Part shown: piece after piece, positions 23,800 to 41,990 of the stretch
How the letters are laid out: each line of letters opens with the position of its first letter
Numbering within the stretch: position 1 is the stretch's first letter
DNA from: Rhizobiales bacterium SYSU XM002
GTDB lineage: Bacteria; Pseudomonadota; Alphaproteobacteria; Rhizobiales; Beijerinckiaceae
Assembly: GCA_009846685.1 (NCBI GenBank)
Contig: VWVY01000004.1
Location: 124,001 to 188,000 of the forward strand
DNA length: 64,000 bases
Direction: 5' to 3'
Program-made: the position numbers and the translations under genes
Notes under the pieces: model-generated
What the model was told of the DNA's origin: nothing
Databases searched by the model: none
What the model saw: only the letters and a program-made list of their open reading frames with translations

Positions 23800-23844
23800 C
23801 AGGACTTGCAACGAAGGGCCGCTTGGCCTAGCTCTTGTTCATGA

Positions 23845-23925
23845 AGCTTGGGGTGCCCCGCCGGGGCTGAGAGGCACACGCCAACCCATCGTACCTGATC
23901 CGGGTCATTCCGGCGGAGGAAAGCT
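23845..23925 (+). promoter_or_regulatory. TPP riboswitch (THI element)
   Basis: All THI-box landmarks are present in order: GGGGTGCCCC, GGGGCTGAGAGGCA, ACCTGATCCGGGTCATTCCG and GCGGAGGAAA. The closing P1 helix is AGCTT (23845-23849) with AAGCT (23921-23925). The thiM ribosome-binding site GGAGGA (23915-23920) is part of the aptamer's 3' side and the GTG start follows one base after P1, so TPP binding should block translation initiation directly. Confidence 0.96.
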
Positions 23926-23926
23926 C

Positions 23927-24727
23927 GTGACGACACCATCAGACCCTGCGGCTGATGCCGCATCTCTTCCTCGGGATCGCGTCTCGCTGGCCAATTGCAC
24001 GGCGAACTGTCTGGAGGCGATCCGCGTCCGCAAGCCCTTCGTGCTGGCGATTACCAACACCGTTGCCCAACACTTCACGGCGAACGGCCTTCTAGCGATC
24101 GGCGCGACGCCCTGCATGGCGCGCAATCCTGACGAGATCGAGGCTTTCGTTGAAGGCGCTGATGCCGTCCTGCTCAACCTTGGCACGATGATCCCCGCCG
24201 AATTTGAGCTGATGCGCTTGGCAGCCGCCACCTGCAACCGAACCGGCAAACCCTTCGTGCTCGATCCCGTTTTCGCCGAACGCTCACCCAAACGCCTCGC
24301 TCTCGCGCGGGAATTGCTGGCCGCACGGCCAGCCATCGCGAAATTCAACGCCGGCGAAGCCGCGGCCATGCAGGGGGATGTCGTCCCCGGAACGGCGGCA
24401 CTGGTAACTGGCGCCCGCGACAGGCTTGCCCATGATGGGCAGCGCGCCATTCTTGCGAATGGGCATCCGCTACTTGGGGAGATCACCGCGACCGGCTGCC
24501 TGCTCGGCGCCATCCTCGCCGCCTGCCTTGCGGTGGAGCGGGAAGCCTTCGTAGCGGGAATCGCCGGCGTCAGCATTCTCAACATCGCCGCAGAGATCGC
24601 CGCCGCCGGTGCGCGCGGTCCGGGCAGCTTCGCCGTCGAGTTGATCGACGCGCTGGCGGCGCTCGACCGCACGACCATCGAGCAGCGCTTCAAACTTGAG
24701 GACCATGAATTCCATGCCCCGTGTTGA
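23927..24727 (+). CDS. thiM: Hydroxyethylthiazole kinase ThiM
   Basis: Phosphorylates the thiazole moiety (HET) for thiamine salvage; 266 residues. Family blocks are PFVLAITNTVAQHFTANGLLAIGATP near the start, KPFVLDPVFAERSP, IAKFNAGEAAAM, and the ATP-site GEITATGCLLGAILAACLA, where the usual GC pair is kept. The start is GTG, placed right after the riboswitch. It overlaps thiE by 23 nt, so translation is coupled. Confidence 0.93.
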   Translation: MTTPSDPAADAASLPRDRVSLANCTANCLEAIRVRKPFVLAITNTVAQHFTANGLLAIGATPCMARNPDEIEAFVEGADAVLLNLGTMIPAEFELMRLAAATCNRTGKPFVLDPVFAERSPKRLALARELLAARPAIAKFNAGEAAAMQGDVVPGTAALVTGARDRLAHDGQRAILANGHPLLGEITATGCLLGAILAACLAVEREAFVAGIAGVSILNIAAEIAAAGARGPGSFAVELIDALAALDRTTIEQRFKLEDHEFHAPC

Positions 24728-38173: not shown

Positions 38174-38249
<76 letters not shown>

Positions 38250-40171: not shown

Positions 40172-41749
40172 TTATGCGGCGCCATGGTGGGCGTGGACGC
40201 GATTGTCCGCACTCTGGCTTTTCGTGAGCTTGTTGAGCGCAACGATATAGGCCTTGGCCGAGGCGACCATCGTATCGGGATCGGCGGCACGGCCGGTGAC
40301 CAGCTTGCCAGCTTCGTCGGCAAGGCGCACCGAAACCTCTGCCTGCGCGTCCGTGCCCTCGGTCACGGCATGGACCTGATAGAGCTCCAGCTTTGCCTCG
40401 TGCGGAATCATCTGGTGGATCGCGTTGAAGGTCGCGTCCACCGGCCCGTTGCCCGTCGCCTGGCGGGTATGGTGCTGCCCGTCGATATCGAGCGTCAGCA
40501 CGGCCGACTGCGGCCCGTTCGTGCCAGCGACGACGAGCAGGTTGAGCACCTTCACACGGTCCTGCGCGGTGGCGATATTCTCGTCGACCAGAGCCTCGAT
40601 ATCCTCGTCGTAGATCACCTTCTTGCGGTCGGCGAGTGCCTTGAACCGCACGAAGGCATCCTCGAGCTGGTTGTCGGAAATCTCGTAGCCGAGTTGCTTC
40701 AATTTGTCGCGGAAGGCGTTGCGGCCCGAGTGCTTGCCCATGACGAGGCTGGTCTTGGTGACGCCCACCGTCTCCGGCAGCATGATCTCGTAGGTCTGGT
40801 TGTTCTTCAGCATCCCGTCCTGGTGGATGCCGCTCTCGTGCGCGAAAGCGTTCCGGCCGACGATCGCCTTGTTGTACTGCACCGGGAACGAGGTCGCCGC
40901 GGAAACGAGCTTGGAGGCGCGGTTGAGCATCGTCGTCTCGATGCCGGTCGTGAACGGGAAGGCGTCGTTGCGCGTCCGGATCGCCATCACGACCTCCTCG
41001 AGCGCGGCATTGCCCGCGCGCTCGCCAATGCCGTTGACGGTGCATTCGACCTGTCGTGCACCACCCAGCAACCCCGCGACGGTGTTGGCGACGGCGAGGC
41101 CGAGGTCATTGTGGCAATGCACGGAGAAAATCGCCTGATCCGCGTTCGGCACGCGATTGCGCACCATCTCGAACATCGCGCGATATTCGTCCGGCGTTGA
41201 ATAACCGACGGTATCCGGCAGGTTGATCGTCGTCGCGCCGGCCTTGATCGCGGCCTCGACGCAGCGGCACAGGAAATCCGCTTCCGTTCGCGTCGCGTCT
41301 TCCGCCGACCATTCGACGTCGGCGACGTGATTACGGGCGCGTGTCACCTGATCGATGACGAGCTTCAGAACCTCGTCCGGCTCTTTCTGGAGCTTGTATT
41401 TCATGTGCACCGGCGAGGTGGAGATGAAGGTGTGGATGCGCGGCCGCGCCGCGTGCCTCACCGCCTCGCCCGCGCGGTCGATATCCTTGAACGCCGCGCG
41501 GCTCAGGCCCGCGACAACGGAATTCTTCACGCGCCTCGCGATGGCGCTGACCGCCTCGAAATCACCTTCAGATGCAATCGGGAAACCCGCCTCGATGATA
41601 TCGACACCCATCTCGTCGAGAAAATCGGCAATGGCGAGCTTTTCCTCGAAGGTCATCGTCGCGCCGGGGCACTGCTCACCATCACGCAGGGTGGTATCGA
41701 AAATCAGGACGCGGTTCTTGTCGGCCTGGGAGAAATTGGGAGAAGACAT
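40172..41749 (-). CDS. leuA: 2-isopropylmalate synthase LeuA
   Basis: First committed enzyme of leucine synthesis, joining acetyl-CoA and 2-ketoisovalerate; 525 residues. The N-terminal TIM barrel has VLIFDTTLRDGEQCPGATMT with the metal-binding aspartate, HCHNDLGLAVANTVAGL with the HxH ligands, and the GIHQDGMLK region. The C-terminal regulatory LeuA domain (from about 400) gives leucine feedback. GAAGGA lies 5 nt before the ATG. A leucine-rich leader ORF and hairpin precede the gene. Confidence 0.97.
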   Translation of the reverse strand: MSSPNFSQADKNRVLIFDTTLRDGEQCPGATMTFEEKLAIADFLDEMGVDIIEAGFPIASEGDFEAVSAIARRVKNSVVAGLSRAAFKDIDRAGEAVRHAARPRIHTFISTSPVHMKYKLQKEPDEVLKLVIDQVTRARNHVADVEWSAEDATRTEADFLCRCVEAAIKAGATTINLPDTVGYSTPDEYRAMFEMVRNRVPNADQAIFSVHCHNDLGLAVANTVAGLLGGARQVECTVNGIGERAGNAALEEVVMAIRTRNDAFPFTTGIETTMLNRASKLVSAATSFPVQYNKAIVGRNAFAHESGIHQDGMLKNNQTYEIMLPETVGVTKTSLVMGKHSGRNAFRDKLKQLGYEISDNQLEDAFVRFKALADRKKVIYDEDIEALVDENIATAQDRVKVLNLLVVAGTNGPQSAVLTLDIDGQHHTRQATGNGPVDATFNAIHQMIPHEAKLELYQVHAVTEGTDAQAEVSVRLADEAGKLVTGRAADPDTMVASAKAYIVALNKLTKSQSADNRVHAHHGAA

Positions 41750-41844
41750 GATCTTGATCCTTCACGAGGAACCGGCTGTGGCGCATAAGCCCGGCTAACC
41801 GGCTCGAAAACTGACAATTTGTTGGAAGTTATCGTGGGTTGGTT

Positions 41845-41883
41845 CCCCTGAGAGCCCAGGCACGCCCGGACGGCCCTCAGGGG
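41845..41883 (-). promoter_or_regulatory. Leader hairpin upstream of leuA
   Basis: On the minus strand CCCCTGAGGGCC pairs with GGCTCTCAGGGG over 12 bp (one G-U) around a 15-nt loop. The 5' arm contains the TGA stop of the leucine-rich leader ORF, so a ribosome on the leader codons would prevent or alter folding. No T-run follows, so it is not a classical terminator by itself. Confidence 0.65.
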
Positions 41884-41990
41884 TTGATAAGAAGGAGCGC
41901 AAGGGCAAGGCAAAGCGCGACCGCCATCGCCGCGTCGAGGCGCGCGATGAGCCGGATCGTCCAACCAGCATTTGCCAGAACCTGAGTCAC
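41877..41990 (-). CDS. Candidate leucine leader peptide upstream of leuA
   Basis: A 37-codon frame from GTG at 41990 (or 16 codons from ATG at 41925-41927, reading MAVALCLALALLLINP) ends 127 nt before the leuA start. Six of the last eleven codons are Leu, five of them CTT, and an Ile follows. The stop lies inside the 5' arm of the leader hairpin. This is the layout of a leu leader. Neither start has a clear ribosome-binding site. A small membrane protein is an alternative reading. Confidence 0.55.
   Translation of the reverse strand: MTQVLANAGWTIRLIARLDAAMAVALCLALALLLINP

Follow-up and report, generated by a model that had tools for sequence, protein, structure and literature searches.

Control of a leucine gene by a short upstream reading frame is represented by the attenuator of the enterobacterial leu operon, which we take to be the Rfam family RF00512. 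In the translational attenuators of ermC and cat, a ribosome stalled in the leader exposes a downstream ribosome-binding site. The system closest in logic to the one described here is the actinobacterial LEU element, which precedes leuA (Seliverstov et al. 2005, PMC1262725) and for which the accessible text of that article proposes that the Leu-codon leader pairs with the Shine-Dalgarno sequence (SD) of leuA. The same text reports a pseudoknot in the LEU element and mutations in the leuA leader of Streptomyces coelicolor with some effect inconsistent with classical attenuation; elsewhere it states that Leu-codon mutations are without influence on regulation. No description of the leader found in Alphaproteobacteria came out of a literature search that stopped short of the likeliest place, Vitreschak et al. 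2004, and the accessible portions of PMC1273637 and PMC10117765 describe no leuA leader. No Rfam family reaches its gathering score at the leader analysed below, and at E up to 1 nothing falls on the leader in five leader-bearing loci.

The window (the whole stretch of 64,000 nucleotides that was analysed) comes from Rhizobiales bacterium SYSU XM002 and carries the following features upstream of and within leuA:

40172-41749, minus strand: leuA, 2-isopropylmalate synthase of 525 amino acids (NCBIfam NF002087, 858.8 bits)
41845-41883, minus strand: hairpin with the stop UGA (41879-41877) in its 5' arm, from folds and class-wide base-pair covariation
41877-41990, minus strand: leader ORF of 37 amino acids with a putative GTG start, C-terminus LLLINP followed by the stop
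41889-41915, minus strand: the leucine codons, read from the sequence as CTT-TGC-CTT-GCC-CTT-GCG-CTC-CTT-CTT

On the minus strand, 127 nt separate the end of the leader ORF, whose translation is MTQVLANAGWTIRLIARLDAAMAVALCLALALLLINP followed by the stop, from the leuA start. Six of its final 12 codons encode leucine, and a codon reading of the stretch LCLALALLLINP gives five CTT and one CTC, as had been described in an earlier note on this DNA. The last CTT occupies positions 41891-41889, its first base being located 8 nt ahead of the hairpin. That note had also placed the leader stop within a 12-bp hairpin with no U-run behind it; both points hold in the window, since the computed fold comprises 12 outer pairs (one G-U) and four inner pairs, with TGA (41879-41877) in the 5' arm. 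The folding energy by itself is modest evidence and proves little for the window leader: a 151-nt piece folds with a z of -2.43 (3 of 200 shuffles are equally stable), and a 251-nt piece is unremarkable (z -0.69; 45 of 200 shuffles). A scan detected no sigma-70-type promoter site. Elsewhere, the window contains a TPP riboswitch (23839-23938, plus strand, 65.1 bits) and a tRNA gene (38177-38249, minus strand).

Matches to leuA were recovered in 61 of 61 related genomes. The leader is present in all 30 loci first returned (the window and 29 of 29 others), always with the same layout: leucine codons, two free codons, a proline codon and a stop included in a CCCCUGAG...CUCAGGGG hairpin. The conservation of this layout in the window and in 29 of 29 other loci excludes chance for the leader. 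Among 25 further leuA loci from the 61 genomes, 23 have the leader and two (L114 and L117) do not; genomes G016, G045, G050 and G059, which lack either a leuA start or a nearby leuA, were left out of this survey. A covariance model (R1) built from the 30 first loci, by which the leader of genomes G017 and G024 was found, matches 63 of the 385 genomes sampled from the class. Besides the window, leuA is the next gene in 60 of the 62 R1 loci, and a small cupin gene followed by leuA is found in the other two. A second model, R2, was built from 58 diverse members and used with a cut-off of E <=0.01. It matches 122 of the 385 class genomes, the remainder being leaderless or below the threshold. In a sample of 299 genomes of the phylum, 55 matches to R2 were obtained, of which two (E 0.002 and 0.007) lie outside the class; these were taken as chance because tblastn finds no adjoining leuA. 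A DNA-pattern scan of named genomes detected at least 119 stretches, with names for 80. Among the pattern matches listed, 115 of 119 have the usual leuA start 30-400 nt downstream, the locus sequence of two matches (L188 and L219) stops about 107 nt downstream, and the carriers include Bradyrhizobium, Bosea, Chelatococcus, Xanthobacter, Ancylobacter and Kaistia. One match from Streptomyces (L157), without an adjoining leuA, was likewise taken as chance, and the last of the 119 is L249, described below.

Two groups of loci depart from the usual gene order or gene type. In family f48, the Leu leader and leuA are separated by a small gene with a cupin domain (PF07883; L310:1654-2010 and L311:1699-2055, both on the minus strand), which would thus be the first target of the leader. 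In L249, a CCCCTGAG-type leader precedes the other leuA type (NLPDRQWP, PRK03739-like; typed from the translation by eye).

Codon-level conservation was examined in 117 oriented loci (L001-L030 and L036-L122), of which 107 were kept for statistics; the ten dropped are eight loci with a leader whose leuA start was missed by the regular expression and the two leaderless loci L114 and L117. The codon table contains 54 families and was weighted by family (the row of L087 has a frame offset). Counting backwards from the stop, codon -4 is leucine in 54 of 54 families and CTT in 51 of them. By family weight, leucine is found at codon -6 in 51.2, at codon -5 in 36.5 and at codon -7 in 28.8 of the 54, all four third bases being used at -6. 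Codon -5 is arginine in about 16 families (15 CGA), and the leucine run is therefore shorter in about 16 of 54. The resulting Leu-Arg-Leu, in which the arginine is nearly always CGA, is seen for example in L057, L067, L078 and L083. The codon conservation across loci supports the earlier suggestion of a Leu-codon leader before leuA. As the case that would speak against it, the earlier note had named conservation of the whole peptide as a membrane protein; we looked for this, and no common peptide outside the leucine run is visible by eye in the leaders listed, so that this case was not encountered. At residues -2 and -3 the amino acid is variable, and the nucleotides are constrained (ANN, then mostly NGC).

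The stop codon of the 107 loci is TGA in 94, TAG in six and TAA in four; two loci have no stop at that place and one (L087) is misregistered. Where the stop varies between UGA, UAG and UAA, the opposite arm co-varies and the pairing is kept: the second stop base and its partner form GC in 41, AU in nine, GU in seven and another combination in one of the 58 sequences of alignment A2. From this variation and the compensating pairing, it follows that the stop codon and its base-stem pairing are both maintained. With the 3' arm of the hairpin set at its best match, 95 of 107 loci form the complete base stem of 8 pairs and the 12 others lack one of the 8. Over the whole structure, two-sided changes occupy 99 cells, compared with 47.2 in shuffles. 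The score for covariation is 0.337, compared with 0.188 in shuffled alignments; none of 500 shuffles attained it, and slid controls remain at 0.146 or below. The number of pairs with a two-sided change is less telling: 11 versus 9.8, with 33 of 500 shuffles attaining that count. For the inner helix, no more than 63.7% of the cells show pairing. The conserved letters reach beyond the hairpin, in the form of CUUA, three freer bases and then GCCCC. The A directly after the last leucine codon (position 41888, minus strand, in the window, and its counterparts) is near-invariant; it lies outside the hairpin and is not dictated by the amino acid.

Concerning the relation between the leucine codons and leuA, the minimum-energy fold of the window leader brings together two further features:

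41891-41896, minus strand: UCCUUC inside the leucine codons, pairing with the leuA SD
41758-41763, minus strand: leuA SD GAAGGA, identified from the sequence and as the fold partner of 41891-41896

For the leuA SD of the window, 5.0 Leu-SD pairs are expected with its own leader versus 1.6 with swapped leaders. Own and swapped SD sequences were compared because leucine codons are pyrimidine-rich anyway. With one locus per family, the mean duplex energy of the leucine run with the SD is about -12.4 kcal/mol for cognate and -10.5 kcal/mol for swapped combinations, and the ungrouped permutation gives a z of about -5.3 (0 of 5000 permutations as low). As some ungrouped control pairs reached a z of -2.7, the permutation was restricted to GC-matched blocks, for which the leucine run and the SD give z values of -3.8, -3.76 and -4.16 (p up to 2.5e-4) and eight control region pairs give values between +1.03 and -1.54. 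A scan of the leader against the SD in 20 windows is strongest at -22..-4, which corresponds to the leucine codons (z -3.96); the neighbours overlapping it reach -2.5 to -2.8. At the ends of the scan, z is -2.06 in the window farthest upstream and -1.6 and -1.7 in the two final downstream ones. By eye, the complementarity extends over 10 bp in L069, 9 bp in each of L078 and L063, and 7 bp in L067. In L249, the Leu-codon stretch CTTCTGCTG matches, by eye, CAGCAGAAG located before the other-type leuA. In L310 and L311, leader letters including the codon after the leucine run fit the SD of the cupin gene by eye over 8 nt each (including a G-U in L311). Computed automatically on a narrower region, the duplex gives only -8.1 and -7.8 kcal/mol, respectively.

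Ensemble folds of the 54 families contain 7.32 cognate versus 4.45 swapped Leu-SD pairs (p 9e-6), and cognate pairs exceed swapped pairs in 40 of 54 families, these ensemble swaps being made without GC matching. Fewer than three Leu-SD pairs are expected in the free folds of 10 of 54 families. The unpaired fraction of the SD is 0.383 in free folds, 0.517 when the leucine codons are masked by a ribosome, 0.460 with the ribosome at the stop and 0.407 with a control mask. The exposure by a stall on the leucine codons differs from that of the control mask (p 0.0013); this change is modest, upward in 37 and downward in nine of 54 families, and the mask at the leader stop likewise exposes the SD. 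With the ribosome on the leucine codons, the base of the hairpin is still paired (0.95); at the stop it is masked by construction.

We consider it likely that the leader is a translational attenuator of leuA in which the leucine run is both the sensor and the anti-SD, and that leucine shortage probably turns on the translation of leuA rather than relieving a transcription stop. The reading frame, the leucine codons, the in-frame stop, the covariation of the hairpin and a complementarity of the leucine run to the SD above swapped controls are legible in the aligned loci; from these we infer the stalling of the ribosome, the direction of control and the role of the hairpin as a brake. A ribosome would start the short leader and read the leucine run, whose last codon begins 8 nt short of a stable hairpin bearing the stop. 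With charged leucyl-tRNA in good supply, this ribosome would clear the leucine run, terminate inside the hairpin and depart; the hairpin would then refold, the freed Leu-codon stretch would pair with the leuA SD and the translation of leuA would decrease. When leucine is short, the ribosome would wait on the leucine codons and cover the anti-SD, the hairpin would stay folded and leuA would be translated. In the alphaproteobacterial set, the last leucine codon (codon -4 of the alignment) begins 8 nt before the hairpin, so that, with this codon in the A site, the hairpin base lies 11 nt beyond the first nucleotide of the codon in the P site. This spacing presumably brings the hairpin base near the helicase site of the ribosome, where the mRNA unwinds, and the hairpin would thus slow the ribosome at the last leucine codon.

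The earlier note had left open the choice between translational control and Rho, and did not contain the pairing with the SD. Translation is favoured because the leucine codons and the leuA SD covary. Under Rho-dependent attenuation, the C-rich stretch after the hairpin would load Rho once the leader is terminated, and a stalled ribosome would prevent the early stop. The lack of a U-run behind the hairpin agrees with this model, as do the mean base shares between hairpin and SD (C 0.298, G 0.250), C exceeding G in 39 of 54 families. However, this C bias is weak and the covariation of leucine codons and SD is left unexplained; Rho-dependent attenuation appears unlikely as the explanation, and Rho and translational control could act together. 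An attenuator of the classical, transcriptional type known from the enterobacterial leu operon, with its intrinsic terminator, could account for a Leu-rich leader preceding leuA, and a terminator scan (four sites in total versus 1.5 in shuffles) gives two overlapping candidates on the minus strand (41934-41916 and 41930-41917). Both nevertheless lie ahead of the hairpin, within the leader ORF, and the hairpin itself is not followed by a U-run; TTTTT occurs between the hairpin and the leuA start in only six of 107 loci, and no cognate pairing was seen between the 3' arm of the hairpin and the 30 nt behind it (z -0.55 to -0.89). An intrinsic terminator is therefore highly improbable here. As an alternative partner for this arm, neither this 30-nt stretch nor the SD gives a cognate excess, and such a pairing was rejected.

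Two other models would place the signal in a protein or in the nascent peptide. The very high conservation of the primary sequence, including CUUA, the three freer bases and GCCCC outside the hairpin, could reflect a regulatory protein bound to the hairpin and to the CUUA stretch, as suggested for the actinobacterial LEU element; the authors of PMC1262725, in the accessible text, favoured a protein. A protein site would, however, need no reading frame, whereas in-frame stops are maintained though their letters change and the third bases of the leucine codons are free, which makes this model improbable. The ending L-x-x-P-stop is conserved, with leucine also at -6, which would suit an arrest peptide sensing free leucine with the ribosome at Pro-stop. 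TnaC and SpeFL are precedents for such peptides. Against this, the constraint at residues -2 and -3 is on nucleotides and not on amino acids, the proline is accounted for by the CCCC arm and a common N-terminal part is not visible by eye in the leaders listed; we regard an arrest peptide as very improbable.

The alphaproteobacterial leader was compared with the actinobacterial element in 31 leuA loci from 79 actinobacterial genomes. In 27 of 31 loci, a script found leucine codons and, behind them, a stop enclosed in a hairpin, and the spacing between the last leucine codon and the hairpin is 8 nt in 26 of these 27. In the exception (L269), the script picked an earlier codon and the last leucine is likewise at 8 nt by eye; L281 has no additional leucine in the three preceding codons. 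A set of 43 actinobacterial and f24 loci was also searched with R2, giving only weak matches, with a best E of 4.3e-4 and 21 matches at E <=1, of which at least three are away from the leader; in the three alignments examined it is mainly the leucine run and CUUA that match, rather than the hairpin. Family f24 (L286-L297) belongs to the window's own order and possesses a PRK03739-type leuA in 12 of 12 genomes. It gave no R2 match in the class (385 genomes) and phylum (299 genomes) samples and has its own, different Leu-rich leader, for example LLLLGLIGDRRVR followed by the stop. By script, this stop is inside a hairpin in 10 of 12 loci, another stem being chosen in L288 and L291; an AAGGAGC/GCTCCTT pair is seen further on in some f24 leaders.

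If the translational attenuator is confirmed, the leucine control of leuA would be translational in a considerable share of the Alphaproteobacteria, Bradyrhizobium, Bosea, Xanthobacter and Chelatococcus among them, and the leader would offer a clean, testable case of a coding run that is sensor and anti-SD at once. As for known systems, the alphaproteobacterial leader has in common with the enterobacterial leu attenuator a Leu-codon leader peptide before a leu gene, and differs from it by having neither a U-run terminator nor an Rfam match. As in ermC and cat, a ribosome stalled in the leader would expose a downstream ribosome-binding site; here, in contrast, the signal would be the leucine supply and not a drug, and the coding run itself would be the anti-SD. 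The LEU element shares the Leu-run leader ORF upstream of leuA, the proposed pairing of the leucine run with the SD (on the alphaproteobacterial side, deduced from sequence covariation) and, in several actinobacterial loci, the motif CUUAGCnGCC. It differs by its phylum, by a mostly distant leuA type (PRK03739 versus PRK00915 here, with the exception of L249) and by its hairpin letters (CCGCGGCGAGG-like versus CCCCUGAG in Alphaproteobacteria). Because the stop-in-hairpin layout and the 8-nt spacing from leucine codon to hairpin are common to both, the alphaproteobacterial leader is called a new variant of the LEU logic: its form appears to be new, and its logic close to that of the element published in 2005. 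The common geometry gives a new handle on the LEU element, whose mechanism is left open in the accessible text of the 2005 article. Tentatively, the two may even be one ancient or horizontally spread leucine switch, a class defined by geometry and not by hairpin letters, in which the hairpin would meet the unwinding site of the ribosome just as the last leucine codon enters the A site, and the leucine codons would double as anti-SD across phyla and two distant leuA types.
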